Shown here in pieces: positions 7,540 to 31,492 of a DNA stretch of 35,628 nucleotides; position 1 is the first letter of the stretch; each line of letters begins with the position of its first letter. The notes below the pieces were generated by a model. It saw only the letters and a list, made by a program, of their open reading frames with translations, was not told the origin of the DNA and made no database searches. The stretch is from Bradymonadaceae bacterium (GTDB lineage Bacteria > Myxococcota_A > Bradymonadia > Bradymonadales > Bradymonadaceae). The stretch is taken from the NCBI GenBank assembly GCA_028274765.1, contig JAQCND010000291.1:1-35628 (forward strand), given 5' to 3'. A program made the translations under genes and the position numbers.

Positions 7540-10500
7540 ATGGACGACGATTCGACCTCGACCTCGCCTCCGACCCGTAGAGGAGACGCTACCGGCGAAG
7601 CATCGGATGGATGCGGCGCCTGGCTGACACTCGGGTGTCTCGGGGGACCCGGCGTGCTGCTGGCGATCGTCGGAGGGATGCTTCTGACGACCGCCTTCAT
7701 GTCCTCGGAGGCCTCCATCAACCTCTGGGTGGGAAGTGGGCTACTGTTGGCGATAGGTGCCACTCTCACCTGGGGGGCCATCGAGACGTATCGTTCGCCC
7801 TCCCGACAGGCGAGTCGTTCGGCGGTCGAAGACGCAACGGCCGAATCGGCGGACTCTCGAGAGACGTCTGCGCCGACAGCGGATGCGACCGCCTCCGAGT
7901 CGACCTCCGGACGGGCTTCTGCGCCAAACGGGCAGGCCCCTCCCTCCGACGATCCCTCCGACAACCCGTCATCGGGGGCCTCATCAACATTACCCACCTC
8001 CGAGCGCGTATCTCTGGAGCGGTGCCCGACGTGTGAGACAGTCCTCGACACTTATCGTCCCCGAGACGTCGAGTCACTCGATTATTGCCCTCGATGCGGA
8101 CATTCCCTCGCCGAAGCGCCATCGGCGGAGATGAGACGACGCGAGCTTCGCCGGGCGATCGCTAAACGGCAATATGCCATCGAGTCCTGGTTCGACTGGG
8201 CGTCCGAGCGTGAGATTGCCGACGATGAGCGCGACGCCTTTCTCGAGCCTCATTTCGATGCGATTGCCGATCTCCGACGCGAATGGTCGGCGATCGACGG
8301 TGCCGCTCCGCCGGTCGAGACGACCAAGCCCGAACGCAGGGACGAAGAGAGCCCCTCCCCGCAGCTCGAACTGCCCTGGGCCAAGGACGAGCCGAAACTC
8401 GACACCGACTCGGTCTCCCCCCGCAAGAACCATCAGGCAGAGCCGCCCGAATCCCCCGAACCGTCTCGGCACGCAGAGGCTTCGGATTCACACCGTCCTC
8501 TCTCGACGTCCAACGCCCCCCCTCCTCCCGAAGCCGAAGCGGCCGAGACCTCTCCATCCAGCCGGGACGAATTACCTGCATCGCCCTCACGGACGGAGGC
8601 GAGCCAGGAGGGGCTCGACGACGCGTCGGTCCCGTCTCGTGTCTCCGACGATCCCGAGGACGAGCCTCCATCGTCTCGAGAAAAGAATCTTTCGATGTCC
8701 TCACCATCGAATGAAACCTCCTCCTCGCGCGACGCCCTCACCGATCCGGATGCGCTGCGCTCAACCGAGGAGGGCGACTCGGAGCATGACGGCGAGGCCA
8801 CCATCGACGAGGATTCCCCGCTCGAGGCAGCCGCCGACGACGGGGGCGCTCCAACGACTCGAATGCCCGACTCGACAGACGGGGGCGACGAGGCCGACTC
8901 GCCCTCTCTGTCTTCAGAGGCCGAACCGATCTCCGATGAGGAGCTCGATCCGAGTGTCGACGCTCCCGATACCGAGGGCGCTTCCCTCTGGGCAGATGCC
9001 CTCCGTCCCTTTTTGATCGGACACTGGTATTACGTGCTCGGCGCGTTTCTGGTGCTTTCGGGCGGTATCTATCTACTCTCGACCGTCTGGGCCTCGATTT
9101 CGTCGCTCGGCCGTCACCTCGTGACGTTTGGCCTTCTGGCGAGTGCCTCGGGCGGATTCGCGAGCTTCGGGCGTTATCTCTCTCGAGCCTTTCCGGAGCA
9201 ATCCGCGGGACGCGCCTTCTGGCTCATCGGATTCGGACTCGTCGGCATTACGGCGTCGGCGTCCGGGGCCATCATCCGCGACACGCCCCTCTGGGGTGGG
9301 GCAGCCGTCGTCGGAGCAACGGCGCTCGGCTGGGGGGTACAGGTTCCACTCTCGACCGACGACGTCGATGTTCCGCTGCTCTGGAGACTCGCGCCGATGG
9401 GACTCCTGGTCGTCGTGGGTGGAATATCGGGATTGCCCTCGACGCAGTGGGCGTCTCACCTCGTCGCTCTCCACGTGGGATTCGCGCTCGTGTGGCTTCA
9501 TTGCTATCAGGTGATGGCTCGAAGCGAAGGAGAGCGAGCGTGGCCGCGTCGACTCACCCTCTGGTTCCATCATCTCGTGCCGACCGGAGTATTCGCCCTC
9601 CTCGCCCTCCTCGTCGCCGCCGTTCATTTCGATCAGTCGAACGTATGGTCGGAGGTGGTGCCCTGGCTCGGATCACTGGCCGCCCTCGCCGGGATGTCGC
9701 TCGCCGAACTCCACGCCGGAGGAGCTCGCGATCGCGGATGGGCCGCCGTCTCGGGTCTGACTCTCGGTGCCCTCGGTATCGGCGCGGGACTCGAGCCCCC
9801 GGTCGCCCACCTCGGGGCCGCTCTCTTCGCCACGATCGCCGCTCACCGGGTGCGAACGCTCGGATCACGGGCCGAGGCCGCCCTCCATATCGGCGGGGCG
9901 TTCGTCTGGGCTGGCATGTTGCGCACGCTCGACGGTCTCCTGCCCGTGGCTCTGCTCGGCCCCGACCTCGTCGCTGCCCGTCATGGACTCTGGGCCGCTC
10001 CCTACGTTGGATGGCTCGTCTATCGGCTGAACATCACGCGGGAGGAGCAACCAGCAGCGGCCGACGCTCTACGGCCGCTCGCGATGATCGGGATCGTCCT
10101 CGGAGGACTCGTGCCCCTGCTCGCGATCGGCTCGTCGACTGGCATCTGGGCAGCCGCCGCTCCGACCTACAGTTTGCTGGCTCACGGGCTCGCCGTCGTC
10201 ACCGCCTGGCCCCTCGTCGCCTATCTCGGCTCCGCCTTCGCCGTCGCCTGGGTGGGACTGACGCCCCTCTTCGTCTCGATGTCGTGGCTGGCAGTACTCG
10301 ATGGATTGCCGTCGACGCCCATCGCCATTTCGTTGGTTGCGCTCGTCGCCCTCGCAGCGACATTGCTCACCGCCAGCATGTGGGCCGAGCCGCGCAACGA
10401 CATGCTGGCGTCGGTCTGGGGCGATACCTCGCTGGCCGTCGCGCCCCTCGTGGCTCTGTGTCTGGCGAACGGTTCCGTCTGGAACCAGCTCCCCGACTGG

Positions 10501-13500
10501 TCGCCCGAGCCTCTCTGGATGGCAGCCTACGTCTCGGTCACCCTCTATGGAGGCGTGCTCCTCGTCGAGACCCGCCGCACCGGATATCGTTGGCTGAGCC
10601 ACCTCACGCCGCTGGTGCTGATCGGGTCGACGGCGCTCTGGGGATATGGCCTCAAGCAGCTCGTCTCGCCGAGCTCCAGCGATCGCGGTGTCATGGTCGG
10701 GGCGATCGGCGTGCTGGGGCTCTTCGAACTCGCCTATCGCCTCGCCGATACGGGACGAAACGTCGAATCGAGGCGCGGACGTTTCGGGCAGCCCCCCTCC
10801 GAGTCCGCCGAGCCGCTCTGGCGCGCGCCACTCCGCCGCTATGGGCTCTCGGCCGCGTGCCTGATTGTCGGCGCCGTCGCCCTCCCAACCCTGCGCCTTC
10901 CCCCTCGACTGATGGCGGGGGGCGTCATGATCATCGTCGCCATCCGGGCGCTCCAGGGGCTCGAACACTCTCGCATCGGGCCGGGCCTGCTCGCCGGAAC
11001 GCTCCTGGCGCTCGGGGCCTCTTGGATGTCGCTTCCGTACGGAGACTGGCTGTCGGAGGCGGAAGCTCTCTTACTGGCGACGACCGGCGTCGCGCTCGCG
11101 CAAGAGTCTCTCCTCGCGCTGATCCCCGATGGACCCGATGACGACGAGACGCGCTCGAAGTGGTCGATCGACGGGGAGACGTGGGGGCACCTCGAGCGCC
11201 TCTCGAGCTACGTGTTCGTCGGCACGTCGGCGCTCGCCGCCGTCATCGGCGTCATGATCGCCTGGGAAGGACTCGGCCCCCGAACGAGGGTCTGGATCGC
11301 CGTCTTCTCTCTTCTGCCGCTCGCCGTCGATCAGATACGCCGACCGGCGAAGTATTCGGCCTGGATGGCGGCACTGGCGTCGAGTGCGATCCTCGTCGCC
11401 CCGCCGCAGACGGGGGCGTTTACGGTGCCGATCATCGTGGGATGTGCAGTGGGCTGGATGGCGATCGAATGGGGGCTGGCTTCGTCGTCGACGGACTCGA
11501 TGTCGGAGCGTCGCCACCTCTACTGGCGCATCGCCGGGGGGACGGCGTCGGCGATCGCAGTCGTCTCGCTCCCGATCTGGCTCTTGATCGACACTCGGGT
11601 GTGGCTACAGACGACCTACAATCCCCCGCCCCCACTCGTCGAAGGCGTCCTCGCGGGGATTCCCCTCCTCTACGGGCTCCTCTATCTGCGACTTCGCTCC
11701 GGCTATCACTGGCTGGCGATCGTTGCCGCCGGAATTGGCTGGTCGGGCTTCGTAGTCGGCTGGACGCGCGAGACGCTCGACCTCCAGCTTTTGGCCGTCC
11801 CCACTCTCTGGGCGCTCCTGACGCTGGGCGCCGATGGCGTGGCCGGATGGCTGCGCGATCGGCACGACGCACGTCGAGACGACGACTCCGAAGACGAATC
11901 GACACGGGACGACGCCGACGAAGACTCGCCCCAGAAAAACGATTCTTCTCTCTGGGGATCGCTCTGGCCGGAGAGTCCGGGATGGGCTCTCGACGATCTG
12001 GCTCGCCATCACCGAGGACTCTGGATGGGATGGGCTCGATGGGGACTCGCCGCATCCGTCGTCTCGGCTCTGGCATGCTACGTCTTCGCCGGCACCTCCC
12101 ACGTTCCCTCGTCCGAGACGTGGCCCATGGGCCATACCCCCTGGTGGTCCGCTCACACGTTGGGGCTGATGGCGGCCGCCGTCGGGGCGATGGGCGTGCG
12201 TCGCGTCTACGACCGTCGAAGCGACCGAGTGGGACCGATCGTGTTGGTGATCGCCGTCTTCGGAGTCGCGATCTGCTGGATCGAGGTCAATAGTGCTCAC
12301 GACTGGACGTATGCTCTCGCCGCCGCCGCGCTCGGCTACGAGGGATTGCTCCTGTTCACCGACTCGATCGGCTCGTCTCGGCAGCCGCGAGAGGAGGCCT
12401 CCGAATCACTGGAGACGTCGCCCCCTCTGGCTTCACTCGCTCGCACGGCTCGCGTCGCCTTTCTCGTGGTGGCGTCGGCTGCGGCGGTCGTGAGTCTGGG
12501 GCGACTGGCGCTGTCGAGCGACATCAGCGGGCTTGGAGTCGCCGCTGCTCTCGTACCGCTCGCACTCGATCAGATTCGCCGGCCCAACGCGGCTTCGGCC
12601 GTCGTGGTGGCTTCCTTCCTGTCGATCGCCGCCTTTCCCGCCGCGGCGAGGACGATCGGCGGCGTCGAGGGATGGTGGTTGTCGGTCACCCTGGGGATCG
12701 CCACGGGATGGCTCGTCCTGCTCGGGCTGCTGGATGGCCTCGCCCGGTGGTTCGGTGGTCGCGAGCGGGAGGAGACCCTCGATTTCTATCGCCCCCTCAT
12801 CTCGACGATTGTCGCCGTCATGCTGCTCGGAACGCTTCCCCTCTGGACGGCGGCCCACGTGAGTGCATGGGCCGTCGAAGTGACGAGCTGGCGACTCTCT
12901 CTCGCCGAGCAGGCCGGGCAATGTTCGGCATTCGCGATCGTCTTGCCCCTTTATGTGGCCGGCTATCTCCGATTGCACCGCCTCCGGCACCTGGGCGCGC
13001 TTCTCGCCGTTGGGCTCACCTGGCCTCTTTGGGGGGGAGCCTGGAGTCTCAGCTGGGGCGAACCGTGGCTGTCGGCGCCCTCAATATGGGCGATGGGCGC
13101 GATTGGCTCGGGCCTCGTGCTCCTCTGGCGACTCGGCCCCGATGTCGACAAAAGTGGCCCGACTCGCGAGGCCACGACGGAGGTCGTATCGGAGGGGTGG
13201 AGTCTCCAAACACCACTCCGTCGTCACGCCGATCTCTGGAGAGCCGTCCAGATCGTCGCGATTCTCCTCGTCCTCATCACGGCGCTGACCGAGTCGATCG
13301 TAGCGGGAGGCATCGCAGTCTCGCTCGCCGCACTGGCTCTTTTGATTGCGGGGCCCTCGCCGTACGATGGCGCAGACATGTTCGTGATGACGGCAGCGTT
13401 GATGCTGATGGTGACTTCACTCCTGTCGGCTCCCCTGTCGTCGGGCGCGCTGGGGGCTCAGGTCCTCCTGCTGGCCGGGAGCGCGACGCTGGCCGCTTGT

Positions 13501-14577
13501 GGATGGAAGATCGCCGGATGGTGGACATCGGTCTCTCTCGATAACTCCGGAGCGGCTCGGGAGCCTCCGAGAGTGAGCACCATCTATCGCCGAGTCGGCT
13601 TCGTCTGGATGGTTCTTCTCGTCCCGCTGCTCGGTTTCGGGGTTCAACCCGAGTGGGCGCTCGCCTCCTCGACGCTCACGCACGGTCTGGCGATTGGCGC
13701 GCTGGGAGGCACCACGGTGCTCTGGAGCTGGGAACCCGTCGAGAGCGGGCGCGAATGGCCGGCGTATCTCGGAGCGGCCGGGCTCTTCGGGCTCTACGCC
13801 TATATTCGAGTGCGCATGGGGGTCGGGACCGTCGAGCACGACTCCTGGATGATGCTGGTACTCGGTTCGGGATTTTTGGCCTTCGAGACGGCGCTCGAGC
13901 GGGCCGGCCGGGACATCTGGCGTCGCGTGACCCTCCGCGTCGGACTCGCCCTCCCCTGGATGGCTCTTCTCTTTGGGTTCTGGCACCCTGAAGTCTTTCC
14001 GAACGGACTCCTGGCGACCTCGAGTGTCTTCTACGTCCTGCTCGGCTGGCATTTCAATCGACGCGGGCTCTACATCCCCGCAGGTATCTTCTGCAACCTC
14101 GAGGTCCTACGCGCCTGGCTCGAGTTCGGATGGATGAGTCCCCTCCTCTGGGCGCTCCCCGTCGGACTGACGCTTCTGATCTTCGCCCGCCTCTATCGCG
14201 AGGCCCTCTCGCCGACGGGGCGTAACGGCTTGCGCATCGCGGGTTGTGCGGCGATCTATCTGTCGAACGCCTGGGAGCTGGTCGCCCTCTATGAACTGAT
14301 CGACGTCCTGGCGCTGGCGGGCCTCTCGATCGCCGGGATCGTCGGCGGCATCCTCCTGCGCATCCGGAGTTATCTCTATCTCGGGACGACGTTTCTCGTC
14401 GGCGACGTTCTATTCAACATGTTTCGGCTCGGCGTCCAGGACCGGAAGTGGGCCGCCTTTTTTCTAGTGCTGGCGGGACTGATCGTGCTGGGCGGGGGAC
14501 TCTACTACAATCTCCGTCGCGAGACGGTACGAGCCCGCCTCGAGACCGTTCGAGAAGAACTCGACGACTGGGAATGA
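7540..14577 (+). CDS. Giant zinc-ribbon, acidic-linker, polytopic membrane protein (2345 aa)
   Basis: Function unknown. An N-terminal pair of membrane segments (about 29-53 and 62-84) is followed by a zinc ribbon, CPTC (162-165) and CPRC (183-186). An acidic, Ser/Pro-rich, probably disordered linker runs from about 240 to 490. From about 492 (GHWYYVLGAFLVLSGGIYLL) to the end, dozens of hydrophobic helices are separated by short loops. Opening segments of this kind, with a W followed by an aromatic/Arg-rich loop, resemble DUF2157/DUF2339-type multi-spanning proteins, but this one is two to three times longer. Internal duplication is visible (see the repeat entry). The end is a short basic amphipathic tail, LRRETVRARLETVREEL. 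The composition and frame stay clean throughout, so it is one gene and not a misassembly. It is convergent with the DUF2520 gene 15 nt away. Confidence 0.85.
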   Translation: MDDDSTSTSPPTRRGDATGEASDGCGAWLTLGCLGGPGVLLAIVGGMLLTTAFMSSEASINLWVGSGLLLAIGATLTWGAIETYRSPSRQASRSAVEDATAESADSRETSAPTADATASESTSGRASAPNGQAPPSDDPSDNPSSGASSTLPTSERVSLERCPTCETVLDTYRPRDVESLDYCPRCGHSLAEAPSAEMRRRELRRAIAKRQYAIESWFDWASEREIADDERDAFLEPHFDAIADLRREWSAIDGAAPPVETTKPERRDEESPSPQLELPWAKDEPKLDTDSVSPRKNHQAEPPESPEPSRHAEASDSHRPLSTSNAPPPPEAEAAETSPSSRDELPASPSRTEASQEGLDDASVPSRVSDDPEDEPPSSREKNLSMSSPSNETSSSRDALTDPDALRSTEEGDSEHDGEATIDEDSPLEAAADDGGAPTTRMPDSTDGGDEADSPSLSSEAEPISDEELDPSVDAPDTEGASLWADALRPFLIGHWYYVLGAFLVLSGGIYLLSTVWASISSLGRHLVTFGLLASASGGFASFGRYLSRAFPEQSAGRAFWLIGFGLVGITASASGAIIRDTPLWGGAAVVGATALGWGVQVPLSTDDVDVPLLWRLAPMGLLVVVGGISGLPSTQWASHLVALHVGFALVWLHCYQVMARSEGERAWPRRLTLWFHHLVPTGVFALLALLVAAVHFDQSNVWSEVVPWLGSLAALAGMSLAELHAGGARDRGWAAVSGLTLGALGIGAGLEPPVAHLGAALFATIAAHRVRTLGSRAEAALHIGGAFVWAGMLRTLDGLLPVALLGPDLVAARHGLWAAPYVGWLVYRLNITREEQPAAADALRPLAMIGIVLGGLVPLLAIGSSTGIWAAAAPTYSLLAHGLAVVTAWPLVAYLGSAFAVAWVGLTPLFVSMSWLAVLDGLPSTPIAISLVALVALAATLLTASMWAEPRNDMLASVWGDTSLAVAPLVALCLANGSVWNQLPDWSPEPLWMAAYVSVTLYGGVLLVETRRTGYRWLSHLTPLVLIGSTALWGYGLKQLVSPSSSDRGVMVGAIGVLGLFELAYRLADTGRNVESRRGRFGQPPSESAEPLWRAPLRRYGLSAACLIVGAVALPTLRLPPRLMAGGVMIIVAIRALQGLEHSRIGPGLLAGTLLALGASWMSLPYGDWLSEAEALLLATTGVALAQESLLALIPDGPDDDETRSKWSIDGETWGHLERLSSYVFVGTSALAAVIGVMIAWEGLGPRTRVWIAVFSLLPLAVDQIRRPAKYSAWMAALASSAILVAPPQTGAFTVPIIVGCAVGWMAIEWGLASSSTDSMSERRHLYWRIAGGTASAIAVVSLPIWLLIDTRVWLQTTYNPPPPLVEGVLAGIPLLYGLLYLRLRSGYHWLAIVAAGIGWSGFVVGWTRETLDLQLLAVPTLWALLTLGADGVAGWLRDRHDARRDDDSEDESTRDDADEDSPQKNDSSLWGSLWPESPGWALDDLARHHRGLWMGWARWGLAASVVSALACYVFAGTSHVPSSETWPMGHTPWWSAHTLGLMAAAVGAMGVRRVYDRRSDRVGPIVLVIAVFGVAICWIEVNSAHDWTYALAAAALGYEGLLLFTDSIGSSRQPREEASESLETSPPLASLARTARVAFLVVASAAAVVSLGRLALSSDISGLGVAAALVPLALDQIRRPNAASAVVVASFLSIAAFPAAARTIGGVEGWWLSVTLGIATGWLVLLGLLDGLARWFGGREREETLDFYRPLISTIVAVMLLGTLPLWTAAHVSAWAVEVTSWRLSLAEQAGQCSAFAIVLPLYVAGYLRLHRLRHLGALLAVGLTWPLWGGAWSLSWGEPWLSAPSIWAMGAIGSGLVLLWRLGPDVDKSGPTREATTEVVSEGWSLQTPLRRHADLWRAVQIVAILLVLITALTESIVAGGIAVSLAALALLIAGPSPYDGADMFVMTAALMLMVTSLLSAPLSSGALGAQVLLLAGSATLAACGWKIAGWWTSVSLDNSGAAREPPRVSTIYRRVGFVWMVLLVPLLGFGVQPEWALASSTLTHGLAIGALGGTTVLWSWEPVESGREWPAYLGAAGLFGLYAYIRVRMGVGTVEHDSWMMLVLGSGFLAFETALERAGRDIWRRVTLRVGLALPWMALLFGFWHPEVFPNGLLATSSVFYVLLGWHFNRRGLYIPAGIFCNLEVLRAWLEFGWMSPLLWALPVGLTLLIFARLYREALSPTGRNGLRIAGCAAIYLSNAWELVALYELIDVLALAGLSIAGIVGGILLRIRSYLYLGTTFLVGDVLFNMFRLGVQDRKWAAFFLVLAGLIVLGGGLYYNLRRETVRARLETVREELDDWE
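10837..13536 (+). repeat. Protein-level internal repeats of about 400 residues within the giant membrane protein
   Basis: Equivalent segments recur. LPLAVDQIRRP near residue 1264 recurs as VPLALDQIRRP near 1672. LLYLRLRSGYHWLAIVAAG near 1380 recurs as AGYLRLHRLRHLGALLAVG near 1807. Units opening with an R-x-x-LW-type segment begin near 1100, 1488 and 1892. Spacings are about 390-425 residues. The DNA itself is diverged, so this is an old tandem duplication seen by eye in the translation. Unit borders are approximate. Confidence 0.65.
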
Positions 14578-19275: not shown

Positions 19276-20337
19276 TCACCCGGCTCGGAGATGTTCCTCG
19301 CGCTGTTCGATCAACCACTCGACGAGTTTGCGGTAGTCCTTGGCGCCTCGGCTGTTGGGCGCGTATTCAAAGATGGTCTCGTTTTCGCCGGGCGCTTCTT
19401 TGAGACGAGTGTTGACCCGTATGGGCGGGAGAACCTTGTCGTGAAAGTGGCTCTTGAGGGTCTTGATTGACTCGTCGCTGATATTGTTGCGAATGTCGTA
19501 GAAGGTCGGGAGAATTCCGAGAATGTCGATCGAATGCACCAGCTCCCGGTTGACGCGCTTCAGGGTTTGCAGCACCTGTTTGACTCCGACGAGACTCAAA
19601 AAGTCACAGGCCACCGGAACGAGGAGGTGGTCCGCAAAGATGAGGGCGTTTTTGTTCAGCAGAGAGAGACTCGGCCCGCAGTCGATGAGAACGAACTCGT
19701 AGACGAGATTCCCGTGGAGCTTGTTGCGCAAGACCTTGTCGGCGTTGCCCTCCATGCGTGCCAGGAAGATTTCGGCCGATGCCAGGGATTCGTCGGCGAC
19801 GAGCACATCGAGATTGGGACGGGCCTGAACGACTGTCTCGTCGAGCGGCTTGTCGTCGACGATCAGGTCGTAGACGGTATCTTCGGCATCGACGCCGAGA
19901 CTGATCCCGATTTGTCCCTGACTGTCGAGATCGATCAGGAGCACGCGATGGCCCTCTTCAGCGAGGCCGGCGGCCACGGAGACACTCGTCGTCGTCTTGC
20001 CCGTGCCTCCTTTTTGGTTGAGGACGGCAATGCGCATCGGCCCCCGTTTGGCGCGAGCGTTGCGACGCCGCTGCTTGGAGGCGACGGGCCGTCGACACTC
20101 CATACTGCAAAAATACACGGCTTCGCCCTCTTTTTCGCCCTGCTGATAGGCGTATTTGGGAACGAACTCTTCGCCACAGCTCGAGCAGACGACCGCCCCC
20201 CGACGGGAGCGATCCTCCTCCCGACACGTGTCGCTGCAGAAATAGGTAACTTCCCCGTCGTCTCGCTTCACTTGATCGGGATTTTTGACGAGAAATTGTT
20301 CCTCACAAACGGAGCAGGTTTTCAGAGCCGTTGCCAT
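19276..20337 (-). CDS. ParA-family ATPase with two N-terminal zinc-finger modules
   Basis: A 353-residue fusion. Two treble-clef-like zinc modules come first: C8-x2-C11...C34-x3-C38 and C51-x2-C54...C77-x3-C81. Each carries the YFCS-x-x-C end seen in TRASH/MYM-type fingers. A basic linker (86-99) precedes a complete ParA/MinD-type ATPase opening MRIAVLNQKGGTGKTTTS. Its deviant Walker A includes the signature lysine at 109, and LLIDLDSQGQ and FVLIDCGPSLSLL follow. ParA proteins position DNA or protein clusters by ATP-dependent binding to a surface. No parB-like partner is in the window. ATG 20337 has GAGGG about 5 nt upstream. The track's extra 24 residues are not needed. Confidence 0.88.
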   Translation of the reverse strand: MATALKTCSVCEEQFLVKNPDQVKRDDGEVTYFCSDTCREEDRSRRGAVVCSSCGEEFVPKYAYQQGEKEGEAVYFCSMECRRPVASKQRRRNARAKRGPMRIAVLNQKGGTGKTTTSVSVAAGLAEEGHRVLLIDLDSQGQIGISLGVDAEDTVYDLIVDDKPLDETVVQARPNLDVLVADESLASAEIFLARMEGNADKVLRNKLHGNLVYEFVLIDCGPSLSLLNKNALIFADHLLVPVACDFLSLVGVKQVLQTLKRVNRELVHSIDILGILPTFYDIRNNISDESIKTLKSHFHDKVLPPIRVNTRLKEAPGENETIFEYAPNSRGAKDYRKLVEWLIEQREEHLRAG

Positions 20338-20475
20338 CGGTGCCCTCGTTTCGTATCGGATGATCTTTCCATCCATTAGCCGGATTCCCCCCGGTGACTC
20401 CCCCCCCATTCCGATCCGGTGCAGGTACGATGTCCTCCCGTCGTTGTAGCGGGGGTGCGGCGTCGATACCTCTGT

Positions 20476-22081: not shown

Positions 22082-23950
22082 ATGTCCCCACGGGGGTTTG
22101 TCATGGCCAATCGTCAGAGGCGCGACTCTCGCGATACCTCCTCGAGCGGGAAACTCAGCACCGACAAGCGCGAGCAGCTCCGGCTCGCTCGACGATGTTT
22201 CGATGCGATCGAGCGACTCGTCGACAGCTCCAGCGGATATCCTCCCGGACACCCCGTCGTCGAGGAAGCACTCGACAACGTCGAGGACGCCTTCTATTCG
22301 TTTTTCAACATGAACGACCGTCTCGCGCTCCGCATCGATGCCCACGAAGCGTATCTCATGGGGACCGACCAGGTGATCTGGGAGACCTCCCGGCCGGACG
22401 ACTACTGCTTCGCGCTCAATCGCGACGGCGTCTACATACTCTACTTCATGGCGGGTATTCACCGGCGCGAGCTGAGACACCTCGTATCGGTTCTCGAACA
22501 GATCGTCGCGGGGACGAATCTCGACGACGATGACCGTGACGATGCCGCCGCGGCCTCCGATCATCGCCCCGATGCCGCCTCGGCGCTCATCGATGCAAAC
22601 TTCGATTACATTGGATTCGAAGCTCTCGATGCGTCGCTGGCCTGGCTGGCCGGACTCGACGTCGAGCTCGGCCAGCGGGACAGTCCCGAAGAAAAAAAAG
22701 CCGTCCGCCAACTCTACGACCGGGTCTTCGATGCCTATCCCGACCTCGAAGGCGACGACGACGGAGGAGGCGAGACGCTCGATGCCAAACTCGATCTCGA
22801 CGTCGATACACACGCCGAACGACAGCGACGCATCGAGTCGGGCAGCGATCACCTCCTCAGCCTCAAACCCGCGCATCAGGATCGTCTCAACGCGGTCAAA
22901 CAGCACCTGTTGCGCGGCGACGAACTCGAAGAGCGCTACGGGGAAGCACTCGCCTCGATTTTGGCCTCGAGCCAGGCCTCGTCGACCCTCCGCGAGCGAG
23001 CGTTCGACCGCGTGGCCAATCTCCTCACCCGCCTGATCGAGGGCGATCAACCCTGGGAGTCCATCTCTTTGCTGAAGACCCTGCACCGGTGGCGAGGCAA
23101 TTTCGACTCCGAAGTCACCGATCGCCTCCGGACCATCGTCGAAGATCGCATGACCGGGCCGCGACTCGACTCGCTGGTCGAACGCATCGCTTCGGAAGAT
23201 CCCGACGTCCGTCAGTCGATCCTCCACCTCTTCGATGCACTCGCACTCGACGAAGCTTCGGCCAGTCTCGTCGAACTCCTGGCCTTCGAGATCGAGGATG
23301 AGGTCCAGCAAGATATCTTTCAGTATCTGGATCGGCGAGCCGGGAAGGCCGGACTCAATGTCATCGGGGAACACCTCGAGTCACTGACGGATACGATCAT
23401 CGATCGCATCATCGAGATCGCGATCGACAATATGCCGAGCACGCGCCTCTTTTTGCTCGACGTCCTGCGACTTCAGGTCGATCCCGATGTCAAGATACGA
23501 GTGCTCGAGGCCCTCCAGGGACACTGGGAAGAACCTCGCGAGATTCGGACGTATGTCGTGCCGCTGCTGAACCACCTGAACTCGGAGCTCCGCACCCTCG
23601 CGATCGAGAGTATCGACGAGGGAGCCCCTCAGCATGCCAGGCGCGTCCTCGAACCTCATATCGATAGAGAGCTCTCGGAGATCCCTCGAGACGAGCTCGA
23701 GACGCTCGTCACTACATTTGCTCAACACGGCGGCCAAAAGGCAGCCGAGGCGCTCGAATCGAACATTCGCATTCGCAAACGCGGATTCGTCAATCAGGAG
23801 CGCAAAGAAACGGCCGAAGCCATCGCCCGAGCCTTGCTCCAGGCGCCGACCCCGCCCATCATCGACATGTTGGATTCAGTCGCCGACGACTGGCTCGTCC
23901 CCAGCGACATCCGAGACGCCTGTGAGGAAGTAGTCGACGTCGTCGGCTGA
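22082..23950 (+). CDS. HEAT-like repeat protein with an N-terminal domain shared with the next gene
   Basis: A 622-residue soluble, acidic protein of unknown function. After a basic Ser/Arg-rich leader, residues about 28-140 form a mixed domain that seems to match the N-terminus of the downstream protein. It has a GHPVVEEALDNVEDAFYSFF helix, an ALRIDAHEAYLMGTDQVIW strand pair, then ALNRDGVYILYFMAGIHRREL. From about 330 onward, helical pairs recur in HEAT/Armadillo style, such as EDPDVRQSILHLFDALAL, DPDVKIRVLEALQGHW and LNSELRTLAIESIDEGA. This indicates a protein-binding scaffold. There is no signal peptide. ATG 22082 has GGGGAG about 9 nt upstream. ATG 22103 (MANRQRR) with GGGGG upstream is a possible alternative. 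The next gene starts 31 nt downstream. Confidence 0.78.
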   Translation: MSPRGFVMANRQRRDSRDTSSSGKLSTDKREQLRLARRCFDAIERLVDSSSGYPPGHPVVEEALDNVEDAFYSFFNMNDRLALRIDAHEAYLMGTDQVIWETSRPDDYCFALNRDGVYILYFMAGIHRRELRHLVSVLEQIVAGTNLDDDDRDDAAAASDHRPDAASALIDANFDYIGFEALDASLAWLAGLDVELGQRDSPEEKKAVRQLYDRVFDAYPDLEGDDDGGGETLDAKLDLDVDTHAERQRRIESGSDHLLSLKPAHQDRLNAVKQHLLRGDELEERYGEALASILASSQASSTLRERAFDRVANLLTRLIEGDQPWESISLLKTLHRWRGNFDSEVTDRLRTIVEDRMTGPRLDSLVERIASEDPDVRQSILHLFDALALDEASASLVELLAFEIEDEVQQDIFQYLDRRAGKAGLNVIGEHLESLTDTIIDRIIEIAIDNMPSTRLFLLDVLRLQVDPDVKIRVLEALQGHWEEPREIRTYVVPLLNHLNSELRTLAIESIDEGAPQHARRVLEPHIDRELSEIPRDELETLVTTFAQHGGQKAAEALESNIRIRKRGFVNQERKETAEAIARALLQAPTPPIIDMLDSVADDWLVPSDIRDACEEVVDVVG

Positions 23951-23981
23951 TCGGCTCGATTGACTCGCCACGTGGATCATC

Positions 23982-25436
23982 ATGAGTTCACACCATTCAT
24001 CTATCGGTCCCTCGGATTCACGACTCTCCTCCAGCCAATTCGAGGACATCGATCCGGACGACGACCAGACGTTCGGGACCACCTTCGTCGATCTCCTCTA
24101 CAAACTCTGCAAGGTGGGCTCGATCTTCGAGGTCGACCACGAGCAGACCGAGGATGCCATCGACACGTTCATGAGCTTCTTTCGCGAAGCGCTCACCCAG
24201 CGAGCCCAGGAGGCGATCTCGTTTCAGATACGCGGAGAGTTCGTGATCGTCGACGAGACCCAGATACAACTGCCTCTTCAGTCCCAGAAGCGACTGCGCG
24301 AACTTCGAGATATCTTCGAGGAGGTCCGGCTCCGCGGGGTGACGTTTCGCCGAGGCCTGACCACCGATGATCTCGAGCGCATGCTCGAGGAGATGCACCG
24401 CATCATCGAGGCGGATGACGACGAGCATATCGGGGGCGTCGACATTCTTCATATTACCCTCGAACTCGGCGAACCCAGGCGCTCGGTGTCCGAAGCGCTG
24501 GGTGATGTCACCCGAGACATGTACGTCTCTCATCTCTATGTACGATGGTTGGTCAAGGTTCGCCACGCTCAGCAGCGAATCCAGAAAGAAGACCCGTCCG
24601 ATGCCTCGGTCGATTCGCTCGAGCGCATCATTCAAAATGTCGCCAAACAACTGCGAGAGAACGATTTTACCATTCTGAGTCTCCCGCCGATCGAGGTCCT
24701 TTCGCCGAGCCTCGCGACCCATTCGGTCCATGCGTCTATCTACTCGATGTTGATCTGTGACCGGCTCGGCGTCCCAGCTCGCACGACGAGCTATCTCGGA
24801 GCTGCCGTGATTGCACAGGATTTCGACCGTCTTCGAGGGATCTCGGCCAAACGACAGGAGAGTGGTCGGAACGTCTCGGCCACCAAGATCTTCGCGGCCA
24901 ACCGACGCGACATCGCCAAGATGCTCGATCGTCTCGACGGTCGGGTTTCGTCTGCCCTTCGATCGCTTCTGACTTACGAGCGAGCGCTTCCCTGGGACGA
25001 GACCGTCGACCATCCCTTCTATCAAAAAGAACGGAACGTCCACGCGGCCAATCGCATGGTCGATCTGGCTCGTCAGTACGATCTGCTCGCCCAGGGATTG
25101 AAGGGAGAGGGCGATCGAAGCCCGAAGCGAGCTCTGGATCTCATCCGTCGACGGGCGGGCGACGATTTTGATCCAGCACTCGTCCAGCTCTTTACAGCAG
25201 TCATGGGGGCGTATCCCGTCGGCACGACCGTCGAACTCAACACGGGGGATCGCGCCGTCGTGACCTATCCTCCGTCTCCCTCCGACGACCCCACTCGCCC
25301 GGAGGTGCGTCTCGTCGAGCGCAACGGCCAGCCCAGGGCCGACCTGACGGCATCGCGCTACGACAATGTCGCGATTGCCGACGTCATCGAGCCCGACGAA
25401 CAGAGCGGAGACGACGACGTCTTCATTCTCACGTGA
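23982..25436 (+). CDS. Degenerate HD-GYP-fold protein
   Basis: A 484-residue cytoplasmic protein. Residues about 20-150 resemble the N-terminal domain of the preceding protein. From about 240 the layout follows HD-GYP phosphodiesterases. THSVHASIYSMLICDRLGVPA lines up with the HS..V...A..LA..LG helix, NRMVDLARQYDLL with the DxYDAL region, and SPKRALDLIRRRAGDDFDPALVQLF plus GAYPVGTTVELNTGDRAVV with the family's C-terminus. The catalytic parts are missing: the expected HD dyad position reads GAAVIAQDFDR, and no HHERxDGxGYP is found. It is therefore probably a non-enzymatic binding or scaffold protein. The overlapping minus-strand ORF of 485 codons is a shadow. A weak GGAT precedes the ATG. The gene converges on the acidic TPR gene. 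Confidence 0.8.
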   Translation: MSSHHSSIGPSDSRLSSSQFEDIDPDDDQTFGTTFVDLLYKLCKVGSIFEVDHEQTEDAIDTFMSFFREALTQRAQEAISFQIRGEFVIVDETQIQLPLQSQKRLRELRDIFEEVRLRGVTFRRGLTTDDLERMLEEMHRIIEADDDEHIGGVDILHITLELGEPRRSVSEALGDVTRDMYVSHLYVRWLVKVRHAQQRIQKEDPSDASVDSLERIIQNVAKQLRENDFTILSLPPIEVLSPSLATHSVHASIYSMLICDRLGVPARTTSYLGAAVIAQDFDRLRGISAKRQESGRNVSATKIFAANRRDIAKMLDRLDGRVSSALRSLLTYERALPWDETVDHPFYQKERNVHAANRMVDLARQYDLLAQGLKGEGDRSPKRALDLIRRRAGDDFDPALVQLFTAVMGAYPVGTTVELNTGDRAVVTYPPSPSDDPTRPEVRLVERNGQPRADLTASRYDNVAIADVIEPDEQSGDDDVFILT

Positions 25437-25490: not shown

Positions 25491-28097
25491 TTACCGCACG
25501 TCGATGATGTCCTCGCGCAGCATGTCGACGAGGAGTTCGAGAGTCTCCTGGCGTCTCATCGAGCTGATTTCGAGGATGTCCTCGAAGGTGATGCGACCAT
25601 CGATCAGACTGAGGACGTAGCCACATCGGTGGTCGAGGTCGGCGCCCGAGAGATCGAGCTCGCTCATGGCGACGTTTTGGGTGGGAACGTCCTCGAGTGA
25701 CCCCAGTTGATCGGCCAGACTCGAACTCTGTACCTCTTCGATCCCCTTGAGTATCTCTTGAGCGCGATGATTATCGGGATTGCGCTCGAGCACCGACTGT
25801 ACGAGGTCGCGTGCCGACTCGTGATTGTCGGATTCGATGAGCTGCTCGGCTTCGTCGAGCAATCGAAAGGCGCCCGACTGAACATGGCTCGAGGGTTCTG
25901 AGCTGGCTTCGGGGACGTCAACGGGGTCGGCATTCAGCCCGGGGACTTGAGTGTCAGAACTGGAAGGATCGGCCTCGCTCTCCTCTGTCCCGACGTCCGC
26001 CGAGGACGCCTCCGACTCCAGCGTCCCGGACGATTCGAACGCATCACTCGAACCGTCCTCGAGGTCGTCTTCGATCTCGACGAGCGGATCTCCCTGGTAC
26101 TGGCGCTTTTGATGATCGCCCTCCTGGCTCTCGTCGGAATGTTCGGAGATCGAGTCGGCCAGATCGAAAAACTCGTTGTCGGCCGATTCGCTCGAGGGCT
26201 GTTCATTCGTCTCCTCGCGCGATCGGGCCGAGCTCGTCTCGGACGACTCCTCGAGTGAATCGTCAATCGACTCGAGGCTCGAATGGCTCGCGCGGTATCG
26301 CGCTTGTTCGTCGTCCGGTTCCTGCGTTCGCGGCTCGGAGTCTTCCGATGCCTCGAGTTCTCCATCGACGAGGTCGGCCGACGAGCCCGGTTCAAAAAGC
26401 GGAGCCGACTCTTCTTCTTGTTTGGGCTCGACGGGCCCATCCTGAACAGCTTCCCCGAGCTCGTCGTCTTCCTCGTCCTCCGGTTCGAGTCCATCGATGT
26501 CGAGGTCGATCGCCTCTCGCTCTTCGTCGTCGCTTGCTTCCCCGAGCCCCGCCGCATCTTCAGGGGGGGTCCCTCCGGGTTCGGTCCCCTCGAATTCGTC
26601 GAACGAAACGCTCATCGCCTCGTCGTCATCGGTCTCGAGGGAATCCGACTCTTCATCCGGCGCTCCTCCCTCGAAGCTCATGTCCAGATCGCCGAGGTCG
26701 TCCCCCACCGACTCCGAAGCGTCCGGCGACGCGATCGGGTCCGAGATCCCGAGATCCATGTCCTCCTCCCGGTCGGACGAGGGAACGGGTGTCTCGTCGT
26801 CGGAGGATGAAGAGGGGGGTGGGGTCCGTTCGGTGTCGTCGAATTCCTCGAACGAAAACCCCTCCTCGCCGTCGTCCGGGCGTCCCCCGTCGAATTCGGC
26901 CGATTCGGCGAAAGAATCGTCGGCATCGCCGGCGGGAACGTCGTCTTGGCCAAACGACAGGTCGAAGTCGTCGTCGGAGGCTTCTCCCTCCAGATCGTCG
27001 ATCTCTTCGAAGTCATCGAAAGAGAGCTCCATGGCCTCACCCTCCGAGGAATCGGCAGATGCCTCCTCGGAGGGAGTGGTCGAGGGGGAACTCGGAGTGG
27101 GAGTAGCGGAGCTGGACGAGGTCTTCTCGGAAGTATCGGTGGAATGGGCGTTCAGAGCATCGTCGGAGGTACCTTCGAGAAAGGCATCCCCGTCGTGGTC
27201 GGAGTCGGTTCCAAGTGCCGGTTCGTCGGACGGGGGCTCGTCCATCTCTAGGTCGTCCATGCCGCCGAGTAGTTCCTCGGCTTCGAGCGAGTCGTCGGAT
27301 GAAGACGGGGAGGGGGCACTCTCCTCTCGGTGGGGCGAATCGTCGCTCCCTGCCGGAGATCCCGAAGAGGAGGAGGGATTACTCCCCTCTCGGGGGGGCG
27401 AGTCGTCGCTTTCCTCCGGGGGGCGCGAAGACGAGGAGGGGTCGACGGGCGCCTCCGGTTGACGAGGGGGCAACTCGTGGGAGTCCGTCGAGGAAGATTC
27501 GGGAGTCGAGTCAATCGTGCCGAACTCCAGATCGTCGAGAGCAGGCGAGGAGGCTCCCGGTTCCGGCGTTTGAGTCTGGGGGAGCGACTCCGACTCGGAG
27601 GTCGGCGGTTCGTCGAGTGTCTCCTCGTCGTGAACCGACGAGGCCACTTCGATATCGGCGATCGGCTCTTCGAGCGCCTCGAGATCGTCCTCGTCGTCGA
27701 CGTCCACGGCGTCGACCTCCGACGTCTCTTGCGAGCCGGTGGCCGGCACGAGTTCGTTCGCCGAAAAATCCGTCTGCGAATCGGAGATCTCTTCCAGGTC
27801 GGCGAATACGTCGGCTCCGGAATCGGATGGGTCGTCCGTCGTACCATCGGAGTCGGTGTCGGCGCGCGTCTGCTCGGCAATGGTATCGTCGAGCCAGTTG
27901 CGAATGGCCTCTATGTTGGCCTGTCCCGGTCCGGCCCGAAGCTCCTGTACCTGGGCGTCGACGTCGGCGTCGAGCACCTCCCAGTCGCGAATACGAACCA
28001 GAAGCTGGAGCGCCTCGACGAATGCCTCTTCGTCGAGCGCCCGCCTGGTCTCTCGAAGTGTCTCGATCAGTTCCGCTTGGTCTGAGACTCCAGTCAT
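25491..28097 (-). CDS. Acidic linker protein with TPR and C-terminal LIDG domain
   Basis: An 868-residue, extremely acidic, presumably cytoplasmic protein. A helical N-terminus (about 5-75) is followed by roughly 650 residues rich in Ser, Asp and Glu that are almost certainly disordered. A TPR-like helical pair comes next (about 739-785, LLDEAEQLIESDNHESARDLVQSVLERNPDN). The C-terminal domain (about 815-868) contains YVLSLIDGRITFEDILEISSM and ends LREDIIDVR. The same small domain opens the J-domain protein of this cluster. Short SF[DE][DE]F motifs recur in the linker. ATG 28097 has GGGAGAG about 6 nt upstream; the six extra residues of the track are dropped. It overlaps the stop of the preceding small ORF by ATGA. 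Function unknown; an Hsp70-linked adaptor is an inference. Confidence 0.85.
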   Translation of the reverse strand: MTGVSDQAELIETLRETRRALDEEAFVEALQLLVRIRDWEVLDADVDAQVQELRAGPGQANIEAIRNWLDDTIAEQTRADTDSDGTTDDPSDSGADVFADLEEISDSQTDFSANELVPATGSQETSEVDAVDVDDEDDLEALEEPIADIEVASSVHDEETLDEPPTSESESLPQTQTPEPGASSPALDDLEFGTIDSTPESSSTDSHELPPRQPEAPVDPSSSSRPPEESDDSPPREGSNPSSSSGSPAGSDDSPHREESAPSPSSSDDSLEAEELLGGMDDLEMDEPPSDEPALGTDSDHDGDAFLEGTSDDALNAHSTDTSEKTSSSSATPTPSSPSTTPSEEASADSSEGEAMELSFDDFEEIDDLEGEASDDDFDLSFGQDDVPAGDADDSFAESAEFDGGRPDDGEEGFSFEEFDDTERTPPPSSSSDDETPVPSSDREEDMDLGISDPIASPDASESVGDDLGDLDMSFEGGAPDEESDSLETDDDEAMSVSFDEFEGTEPGGTPPEDAAGLGEASDDEEREAIDLDIDGLEPEDEEDDELGEAVQDGPVEPKQEEESAPLFEPGSSADLVDGELEASEDSEPRTQEPDDEQARYRASHSSLESIDDSLEESSETSSARSREETNEQPSSESADNEFFDLADSISEHSDESQEGDHQKRQYQGDPLVEIEDDLEDGSSDAFESSGTLESEASSADVGTEESEADPSSSDTQVPGLNADPVDVPEASSEPSSHVQSGAFRLLDEAEQLIESDNHESARDLVQSVLERNPDNHRAQEILKGIEEVQSSSLADQLGSLEDVPTQNVAMSELDLSGADLDHRCGYVLSLIDGRITFEDILEISSMRRQETLELLVDMLREDIIDVR
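27301..27426 (-). repeat. 63-bp tandem repeat in the acidic linker gene
   Basis: Two imperfect units of 63 bp (27301-27363 and 27364-27426) lie head to tail, and the start of a third follows. Both contain CTCTCGG-x-GGGGCGA-x-TCGTCGCT on the plus strand. They encode 21-residue units of the type SDDSPxRExSxPSSSS. I estimate about 70 percent identity by eye. Confidence 0.65.
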
Positions 28098-28336
28098 AGC
28101 GTTCTCTCCCGGCACGTCGACGAGGATACATCGAGCGAGGACCTCTCTACGAGAAATGACGAATCATCCTCGTACACGAGGTGGAGCGACCCGATCCGAT
28201 TGTCGGGGTCTAGAGAAACCCGGAAGTGCAGGTGCTCGCTCACGACCTCGCCTTCAGTATACCAGTAGACGGACGAGCTCCGGGGCGCTCCTTCGACGTC
28301 GGGACGACACCAGACGTCAAGTGCGCTGAAACACAC
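28094..28336 (-). CDS. Possible small protein between dnaK-like gene and acidic TPR gene
   Basis: An 80-residue reading frame that starts at a GTG inside the last codons of the dnaK-like gene. It ends in a TGA overlapping the next ATG as ATGA. The track shows only a longer version (28094-28522) whose first part is a dnaK shadow. Beyond the dnaK stop the frame reads SSVYWYTEGEVVSEHLHF, then IGSLHLVYEDDSSFLVE. It looks protein-like, with alternating hydrophobic residues and mostly G/C third positions. There is no good ribosome site for the GTG, but coupling to dnaK is possible. If it is not a gene, this is a 219-nt spacer inside an operon. I recognise no family. Confidence 0.42.
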   Translation of the reverse strand: MCFSALDVWCRPDVEGAPRSSSVYWYTEGEVVSEHLHFRVSLDPDNRIGSLHLVYEDDSSFLVERSSLDVSSSTCRERTL

Positions 28337-30143
28337 CTCGAAAGGCTTCGAGGGCTCGACTGAGTTTCTCGTCGGTCTCCTCGAGTTCCTCGAGGCTGGC
28401 GTCATCGATGGTGTCCTCGGCCGTCTGCACGGCTTCCACCGCGCGTTCTTTGGCCTCTCGTAGCAATTCCGAATTCGATCCCTCGATGTCATCGACCTCC
28501 GAGACGAGCTTGTTGATCTCACGGATGGTCCGACGAATCTGCGTGCGGAGTTCCTCGATCTCTTCGCTCCGCTTGACCTCCATCAGATAGTCTTCGTTCT
28601 CTTCGATCATGCGGTCGATCTCTTCTTCGGTGAGGTTGCTCGAAGCCGTCACCGTGATCGACTGCTCTTTGCCGGTCTCGAGATCGGTCGCCGAGACGCT
28701 GACGATGCCGTCGGCGCTGATGGAAAATTCGACTTCGATCTCGACCTCGCCGGCGGAGGCACTCCGGAGCCCGCTGAGTACGAATTCGCCGAGCAGTTCG
28801 TTGTCTTCGGTCTCCTCTTCGTCCCCCTGCAGGACCACGATTTTCACGGAGGTCTGATGGTCGCGAACGGTTGTAAAGATGTGGCTCTCGCTGGTCGGGA
28901 TCGTCGAGTTTTTCTTGATGAGCTTCTCGTAGCCTCCACCGTGGACCATGATCCCGAGGCTGTGAGGGGTCACGTCCAGCAGCAGGACGTCCTCCTCGTC
29001 CTCGTTGACGAGGGCGTCGCCCTGGATGGCCGCTCCGATGCCGACCACCTCGTCGGGATGGACCTTTTTGGAGGGTTTAGTGCCGAAGAACTCCTCGACC
29101 TCCTCCTGGATGCGCGGCATGCGGGTCATGCCGCCGACGAGGATGACGTCGTCGATTGCCTCCGGGCCCAACCCGGCCTCCTGGAGGGTGGCGTCACAGA
29201 TCTTGGTCGTGCGCTGAATGAGATCGATTACCAGCTCCTCGAGCTTCTCGCGTGTCAGCGTCGTCTGCAGATGCAACGCCTCTCCGTCATCCTGCGTATA
29301 GAGGAACGGGAGACTGATTTCGGTCTCCTCGACCGACGAGAGTTCAATTTTGGCTTGTTCGGCGGCGTCTCGGAGCCGCTGCAGCGCCATCTCGTCTTTG
29401 CGGAGGTCGATCTGATGGTCGCGAGCGAACTCGTAAGCCAGGTGTTCGATGATGCGGGCATCGAAGTCTTCGCCCCCGAGAAAGGTATCGCCCGCGGTCG
29501 AGAGGACGTCGAAGACGCCGTGGCCGATGTCGAGAATCGAAATGTCGAAGGTCCCTCCCCCGAGGTCGTAGATGGCGACGGTAGCCTCGACGTCCTCGTC
29601 GTAACCGTAAGCCAGGGCAGCAGCAGTCGGCTCGTTGATGATGCGAATGATGTCGAGACCGGCGATCTTGCCGGCGTCTTTGGTGGCCTGACGCTGGGAG
29701 TCGTTGAAGTACGCCGGGACCGTCACGACGGTCTGCTCGGGGTCGTCGCCCAGATGCTCCTCGGCGACGAGTTTCATCTCCTGGAGGATGATGCTCGAAA
29801 TTTCGGGGAGACTGTATTCTTTGCCTCGCAGCTTGACGCGGACATCGTCGTGGGGGCCGGGGACGATCTCGTAGGGACACGTCTCGATACAGTGACGGAC
29901 GGCCGACGAGCCCCATTGGCGTCCGATCAGACGCTTGGAGGCGTAGATCGTGTGTTGGGCGTTGGTGATGGCCTGGCGCTTGGCCATCTGCCCGACGAGG
30001 CGCCGGCCCGATTCGGTGATGGCTACGATGCTGGGCGTCGTCTTGTAGCCTCCCTTGTTGGGAATGACCTTCGGGGTTCCGTTTTCGACGACGGCCACAC
30101 ACGAGTTCGTCGTTCCGAGATCGATACCGATGCATTTGTCCAT
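28317..30143 (-). CDS. DnaK/Hsp70 paralogue
   Basis: A 608-residue Hsp70 with a complete ATPase domain ([19 protein letters not shown] at the start, [47 protein letters not shown]). The interdomain linker VLLLDVTP lies at about 385-392, followed by a beta-type substrate domain (about 393-505) and a helical lid to the end. It deviates from housekeeping DnaK: after the linker it reads [16 protein letters not shown] in place of the usual LSLGIETLGG, and the lid is short, without the usual disordered tail. No grpE or canonical dnaJ is nearby, so this is likely a specialised copy like the extra DnaKs of myxobacteria. AGGAG lies 6 nt before ATG 30143; the track's eight extra residues are unneeded. 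It is 77 nt downstream of the J-domain gene. Confidence 0.93.
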
Positions 30144-30166
30144 GAGGGCTCCTTCGTCACAGATCA

Positions 30167-30192
30167 TGGATGGACGGACCTCGTCCGATCCA
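30167..30192. other. Hairpin between J-domain gene and dnaK paralogue
   Basis: Plus strand: TGGAT-gga-CGGAC, loop CTC, GTCCG-ATCCA. The two 5-bp arms would form one stem with a 3-nt bulge. It lies about 15 nt upstream of the dnaK Shine-Dalgarno. It could be an RNA processing or translation-control element. No T-run follows, so termination is unlikely. Confidence 0.35.
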
Positions 30193-30220: not shown

Positions 30221-31492
30221 CTACGAGTCGAGAAGCTCATTTCGTCTACGTCGAGCCATCTCGTCCTCCCGGATGTCGAGAACCTGGTTGTAATGTTCGA
30301 GCGCCCGTTCGCGCTCCTCGAGTTTGTCGAAGATACGAGCCATCAGGAGGTGAGCGTCCGGGTGTTTGTCGTCGATGCGGAGCGCGGCCCGAGCGAAAAG
30401 CTGAGCTTGCTCGAGGCGCAGATCGGCCTCGACTAGCATGTCTGCCGCTTCGAGGGCCACCTCGACGTCTCGTTGAATGCGGAGGGCCTTGCGGAACTGC
30501 TCGGCGGCCTGGACGATCTGCTCCTTCTGACGTGCCTGTGTACCCCGATTGACGAGAACCCGAAAGGCTGCCTCTCGTTTGTCGGGATCCGAATTGTCGT
30601 CTCCGATATCGGTCGAGGCATCCTGTTTTCGAGCCATATCGATCGAGGAGGGTTGATTCATCGGGGTCGGGACATCCTCCTCGTCATCGACGATCTCCTG
30701 CTCTTCGAGCTGTGCGTCGTACTCGTCTCGCTGTTCGGGGTCCGACAGAATGCGATGCCCCCGAGTGACGTGCTGAAAGACGTCCTCGATGATCTCGGCA
30801 AACGGGCCGAGATCGTTCTGAAAATAACGATCCGGGTGGTAGCGCTTCGAGAGTTTGAAGTAGGCATGTTTGATGTCGCGGGCCGACGCGTCGCGATCGA
30901 TATCGAAAAACTGATAGTAATTGACCTCATCGAGCTGACCGTGGAGACAGAGCAGCTCGCGTCGCTTCGGCCGTTCGATGGGAAGATCGTCGCGTTCGAG
31001 GAGCCTGTCGTCGAACTCGAAGGCACTCGGAGGCACGGGAAGATGAGACAGATCGAGCCCCGTCGACTCGTTCGAAGCGGAATCGCCGGTCGAGGCCTCG
31101 TCGTCGCCCCTCGTCTCCCCACGTCGTGAGGATTCGAGGTCGTTCGCGCCCGACGACGAAGTGCGGGGTCTCCGAGTCTCGCGCCGCGAGGAGGTCGCAT
31201 CGGAGCTCGTGGGGGCGGAGCTCGCCTCTTCGCGCTCGACTCCGGGCATGTCGATCAGCCCGACCTCGAGCAGACGCTGGAGCGCCTCGAGCGTACTCTC
31301 ACGTCCCAACCCGCTGGTCGAACAGAGTTCGCCGACGGTCGTGCTGCCGTCGATTCGCGAGTACAGGAAGAAATCATCGGGGGAGGGTGTCTCCGAGAGT
31401 TCGTCGATGTCGACGCCCGACACTTGGGTTGGTGTAGCGTTGTCGTCGAACAAAGGCTCGTGGGTCGCGTTGAGGAGTCGCGATTCGATCAT
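30221..31492 (-). CDS. J-domain protein with N-terminal LIDG domain and C-terminal TPRs
   Basis: A 423-residue class C (type III) DnaJ-like co-chaperone. Residues about 28-85 form a small domain with LYSRIDGSTTVGEL and ending LLEVGLIDMPG. It matches the C-terminal domain of the acidic protein in this cluster. A Ser/Arg/Asp linker follows. The J domain is at about 190-258 (NYYQFFDIDRDASARDIKHAYFKLSKRYHPDR), with the HPD tripeptide needed to stimulate Hsp70 ATPase and an ILSDPEQRDEYD end. TPR-like helices span about 300-415, including VNRGTQARQKEQIVQAAEQFRKAL and RALEHYNQVLDI. There are no Gly/Phe or CxxCxGxG zinc regions. It lies upstream of the dnaK paralogue in the same direction, so it is the likely dedicated partner. 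The ribosome site is weak. Confidence 0.9.
   Translation of the reverse strand: MIESRLLNATHEPLFDDNATPTQVSGVDIDELSETPSPDDFFLYSRIDGSTTVGELCSTSGLGRESTLEALQRLLEVGLIDMPGVEREEASSAPTSSDATSSRRETRRPRTSSSGANDLESSRRGETRGDDEASTGDSASNESTGLDLSHLPVPPSAFEFDDRLLERDDLPIERPKRRELLCLHGQLDEVNYYQFFDIDRDASARDIKHAYFKLSKRYHPDRYFQNDLGPFAEIIEDVFQHVTRGHRILSDPEQRDEYDAQLEEQEIVDDEEDVPTPMNQPSSIDMARKQDASTDIGDDNSDPDKREAAFRVLVNRGTQARQKEQIVQAAEQFRKALRIQRDVEVALEAADMLVEADLRLEQAQLFARAALRIDDKHPDAHLLMARIFDKLEERERALEHYNQVLDIREDEMARRRRNELLDS

Follow-up and report, generated by a model that had tools for sequence, protein, structure and literature searches.

The window analyzed here, a 35,628-nucleotide stretch of DNA from a Bradymonadaceae bacterium, belongs to contig C640 of a 4.77-Mb assembly (667 contigs, 88% complete) and carries two genes in tandem on the forward strand, separated by a 31-bp spacer (positions 23951..23981). 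The upstream open reading frame (22082..23950) encodes a 622-aa protein in which an N-terminal domain (copy 1, residues 28-150; 22163..22531) precedes a region of HEAT repeats (residues 255-620; 22844..23941), the latter delimited by matches of this protein and its homologues to a family profile and to Pfam HEAT_2. The downstream open reading frame (23982..25436) encodes a 484-aa protein composed of a second copy of the N-terminal domain (residues 27-148; 24060..24425), a degenerate HD-GYP domain (residues 226-408; 24657..25205), and a C-terminal extension starting with YPVGTTVEL (residues 409-484; 25206..25433) that alignment revealed to be conserved in homologues. Neither protein contains a transmembrane-like stretch. 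Named relatives of the HD protein include Lujinxingia vulgaris and one Lujinxingiaceae genome (closer alignment, 9 named loci), which places the host near the Bradymonadales.

An earlier note, made from the DNA letters, had claimed that both proteins open with a similar unit. Profile-profile comparison (hhalign) of the HEAT- and HD-protein N termini bore this out, yielding P = 6.2e-12 (113 columns) once the alignments had been rebuilt and P = 3.9e-11 over 118 columns in a first comparison with ∼25 homologues per profile, other families included. Ten unrelated pairs of segments from the same two families, used as controls, gave P values of 0.07-0.55. The motif pairs singled out in that note (DAFYSFF/DTFMSFF, GVYILYFMAGI/GVTFRRGLTT, and LEQI/MHRI) fall in register. 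Direct comparison was far less telling: BLASTP of the two window proteins returned fragments only (best E, 0.083; SFF segment, 0.42), the Smith-Waterman score of the two N termini was reached by 30 of 2000 shuffles, and profiles built from the window's own family did not match (P 0.096). The domain match thus relies on divergent homologues, and the comparison became decisive once those from other families were included. Similarity between the two N-domains within most genomes is very low (median Z 1.3), whereas cognate domains match directly in some relatives (Z = 8.0 in G058 and 6.0 in G057). Structure prediction of each N terminus pointed the same way, with confident AlphaFold models of copies 1 and 2 (pLDDT 92.4 and 95.1) that display the element order H-H-E-E-E-H-E-H at nearly equal positions; the likeness consists of this order and these positions. 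We regard it as practically certain that the two N termini are one homologous domain of ∼120 residues.

This shared domain is undescribed, with no counterpart among Pfam families or solved folds. A Pfam scan of 35 domain members rendered scattered single-member matches only (best E, 0.003), and the domain sequence profile found no credible match among solved chains. Foldseek searches of the PDB at E <= 0.001 retrieved no matches, the best E values of the two models being 0.31 and 0.19, and nothing was found when one domain model was compared with viral fold models. The pair would add a domain with neither a described family nor a solved fold.

The assignments of the remaining parts of both proteins made in the earlier note also hold. 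The window HEAT protein scored 22.6 bits against Pfam HEAT_2 (E 1.3e-4; curated cutoff, 27.7), but its relatives match this family strongly, with E values of 1e-15 to 5e-20 and homologous partners reaching 57.9 and 72 bits. The HD-protein profile matched solved HD-GYP domains with E values of 9.5e-20 (4mcw), 3.9e-17 (5z7c), and 1.7e-12 (4r8z), and by this sequence measure the window protein belongs to the HD-GYP fold family. Seven metal ligands are shared by the family, which in PmGH numbering are H189, H221, D222, H250, H276, H277, and D305 (PMC4159591). The corresponding residues of the window protein are H, Q, D, N, R, A, and R, so that only two of the seven are kept, namely, H247 and D280 (equivalents of H189 and D222). 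The GYP motif, present in relatives at L076, L121, and L137, is also missing, and the window protein is thus probably not an active HD-GYP phosphodiesterase. Across 58 family proteins, ligand retention is bimodal (6-7 in 14 proteins and 0-3 in 44), and some members retain all seven shared ligands. Most simply, the ancestor would have been an enzyme, and several lineages would have lost catalysis while retaining the domain and its partner. The family would thereby supply a naturally graded set of proteins, ranging from active enzymes to dead relatives, that all have the same partner.

To assess conservation of the pair, we searched 239 genomes of the phylum, which includes Myxococcus, with the domain alone. 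The domain was found in 119 of them. Within the phylum-wide sample, it occurs in no more than two architectures, domain-HEAT and domain-HD. Among the domain matches listed, 78 of 150 already stood in tandem. A full reading of 20 seemingly unpaired matches revealed 17 with an adjoining partner below the listing threshold, one fusion, one that ran off the contig end, and one that stood alone. This lone member (L132) is a HEAT protein, and the pair is thus not absolutely obligatory. Neither is it indispensable, since neither gene is present in the sole congener sampled (G001; 93% complete, 10 contigs). The HEAT gene precedes the HD gene in tandem on the same strand in all 56 two-gene loci analyzed, and in 44 of these the downstream frame is already open within the upstream gene. 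Where a genome carries a second or third pair, these obey the same order and strand rule. In the window's own genome, there are exactly two detectable copies of the domain, i.e., the N termini of the HEAT and HD genes. The HEAT and HD trees agree, with a distance correlation of 0.90 compared with a mean of 0.76 when paralogues were swapped within genomes; 23 of 2000 swaps reached the observed value, identity swaps among them. Significantly matching N termini are therefore accompanied by a pair that is conserved in related genomes across the phylum, as the earlier note had anticipated, and the two genes almost certainly constitute a functional unit.

Natural fusions reinforce this picture. At L114 (genome G122), a single 1182-aa open frame joins both genes in the usual order (N1-HEAT-N2-HD), with domain copy 1 at residues 147-260, HEAT repeats at 326-673, copy 2 at 744-863, and the HD domain at 893-1178. 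At 11 other loci, a Ser/Thr kinase domain is fused in frame to the N terminus of the HEAT partner; the DFG motif occurs in nine of the 10 examined and HRDLKPxN in six. An Hsp70 domain takes the place of the kinase at a further locus (L130). These 12 loci form a single clade in both trees (support 1.0), indicating one acquisition and one replacement rather than 12 events, and their HD partners keep at most two metal ligands in all 12 cases. The window HEAT protein has no kinase domain. As the kinase or Hsp70 domain precedes the shared domain in this clade, the latter may be a connector. The earlier note was thus right in recognizing a shared domain with two outputs and a real two-part system (56 of 56 loci and one natural fusion), but the input role, the sensing, and the heterodimers that it proposed are hypothetical, and it overlooked the attached kinase and Hsp70 domains, the fused L114 protein, and the relatives with an intact catalytic site. 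Kinase and Hsp70 fusions provide a concrete link from cyclic-dinucleotide-type proteins to Ser/Thr kinase or chaperone signaling. At L067, L079, and L148, a separate kinase gene immediately follows the pair, which is weak evidence because kinase genes are common in this phylum. In two kinase-fused loci (L117:1020-5318 and L115:1944-5420), the frame of the HD partner runs several hundred residues past the HD domain; the extension in L117 holds a DUF4388 domain. Pair conservation, fusion, and the varying retention of metal ligands together point to an ancient two-subunit module whose function outlived the loss of its phosphodiesterase site.

The pair is very probably an uncharacterized two-part signaling complex. 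Judging from their sequences and inheritance, the HEAT and HD proteins probably form a physical complex, and there is about an even chance that the contact between the subunits is made through the shared domains. In the mechanism that we propose, the two genes would encode subunits of one soluble signaling complex, with the shared domain either joining them as an N-N heterodimer or docking each of them on a common partner. A client would be bound by the HEAT repeats. The HD-GYP-like subunit, putatively a former cyclic-dinucleotide phosphodiesterase that is dead in the window copy, would work by binding a nucleotide or a protein, thereby gating what the HEAT subunit holds. Energy for switching could come from the kinase or from Hsp70/DnaJ, through covalent attachment in the fused clade and, in the window's family, perhaps through the neighboring Hsp70/DnaJ genes acting in trans. 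Taken as a whole, this kinase/chaperone-linked scaffold, held by the shared domain and with a dead HD-GYP acting by binding, is our best explanation, to which we give a somewhat better than even chance. A wider generalization is tentative: it envisages a phylum-wide, hitherto undescribed complex of myxobacteria and their predatory relatives in which a domain of unknown fold would bring together a HEAT scaffold, in some cases a Ser/Thr kinase or Hsp70 in its own right, and an HD-GYP subunit in which catalysis has been lost repeatedly, so that cyclic-dinucleotide signaling would meet Ser/Thr phosphorylation in one heteromeric machine.

Two other readings were weighed and appear unlikely to a similar degree. 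The shared domain could be a ligand sensor through which both proteins answer one signal separately, without forming a heterodimer. It lies at or near the N terminus of both proteins, as sensor domains often do, and sensory domains are a usual component of HD-GYP proteins (PMC4159591). Strict co-inheritance, the fixed gene order, and the L114 fusion favor joint action instead, and the domain, which is preceded by a kinase or Hsp70 in the fused clade, shows no obvious ligand-binding signature and has no PDB relative. Alternatively, the pseudo-HD-GYP could be a c-di-GMP or cGAMP effector that binds the nucleotide uncut and alters the grip of the HEAT subunit. Its clear descent from HD-GYP phosphodiesterases, with intact relatives, would agree with this, and inactive EAL and HD-GYP proteins acting via nucleotide or protein binding have been discussed (PMC4159591). 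However, with two of seven metal ligands and no GYP, the pocket of the window protein may be gone, the pocket of the inactive HD-GYP protein Bd1817 is closed (PMC4159591), and no linkage of the window pair to a diguanylate cyclase was detected. We consider it doubtful that the window protein has a cyclic-dinucleotide ligand. Mere ancestry, i.e., tandem duplication of the N-domain followed by hitchhiking of genes encoding independent proteins, is compatible with the unrelated HEAT and HD parts and with the very low N-domain similarity in most genomes, but it is highly improbable given that order is conserved in 56 of 56 loci across many families whose other neighbors differ, and that co-duplication and fusion are hard to obtain by hitchhiking.

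Comparison with known systems sets the pair apart from each of them. HD-GYP phosphodiesterases (PmGH, 4mcw; cGAMP phosphodiesterase, 5z7c) have a fold in common with the window protein over a profile of ∼180 residues, but the latter differs in its two ligands, the lack of GYP, the undescribed N-domain, and the HEAT partner. Bd1817 of Bdellovibrio (3tm8), like the window protein, is an inactive HD-GYP relative; it is unconventional, has a closed pocket, and still binds a di-iron center (PMC4159591). Its match to the window-protein profile is weak and restricted to the HD part (E 7e-4). PomY of Myxococcus xanthus, a component of the PomX/Y/Z division-site system, consists of a coiled-coil start, a disordered region, HEAT repeats, and, at the C terminus, another disordered region that includes a globular domain (PMC13170346). 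It resembles the window system in having HEAT repeats in a myxobacterial scaffold, and a ParA-type ATPase gene lies near the window pair; however, no HD partner of PomY is described in that paper, and the window ParA gene is on the other strand from the pair. The window HEAT protein was rejected as a PomY, since its globular shared domain comes first and its HEAT region runs to the C terminus. MasAB was likewise ruled out as an identity for the pair (PMC3546991). The Hanks-type Ser/Thr kinases of myxobacteria have a counterpart in the one clade whose HEAT subunit contains a Ser/Thr kinase domain, unlike the window protein, which has no kinase. Full-text searches of the open-access literature for HD-GYP proteins or kinases with HEAT repeats in myxobacteria revealed no description of this pair, nor of a pseudo-HD-GYP with a kinase-domain-HEAT partner. 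The findings reported here would provide a common frame for a two-gene family whose members are now probably annotated separately as "HEAT repeat" and "HD domain" proteins.

Several genes around the pair recur in relatives. The ParA-type ATPase (19276-20409), with N-terminal MYM/FCS-type zinc-finger motifs, is a conserved feature of the pair's surroundings in the window's family. Downstream, on the minus strand, lies a conserved gene (25491..28115) whose long, acidic product is of low complexity, contains a TPR-like stretch, and ends in a conserved tail (LDHRAGFLLSQIDGM-type in relatives). The gene is convergent with the HD gene in most own-family loci and adjoins it in family loci L061 and L063-L066 as well as in the named homologues. 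It is followed on the same strand by genes for an Hsp70 paralogue (28317..30167) and a protein with an internal J (DnaJ) domain and TPR (30221..31492). All three are conserved neighbors in the window's family and only putative members of the module. The Hsp70 is of a non-housekeeping type; it is one of several in the genome and its fourth-best Hsp70 match, and is possibly a signaling Hsp70 of the SglK kind. Proximity alone is weak, but that of Hsp70/DnaJ to the pair may be meaningful in view of the L130 fusion; it may also be positional, as these genes are convergent and not co-transcribed with the pair.

Other features of the surroundings vary among loci. Lipoprotein genes (F14, F16) upstream of the pair in several relatives were dismissed as a third component, being absent from the window and not conserved across families. 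In some class-level relatives (L074:12932-19631, L068, L073, and L133), a ybaB-recR-mglB-mglA cluster (cell-polarity GTPase genes) occurs a few genes away from the pair; this neighborhood is confined to a few loci and was therefore set aside as functional evidence. A GGDEF gene also occurs near the pair in L074. In L072, L077, and L070, a diverged second pair of the family adjoins an N6-type DNA methyltransferase-like gene. Finally, the window contains an open reading frame of 2345 codons on the plus strand (7540-14577).
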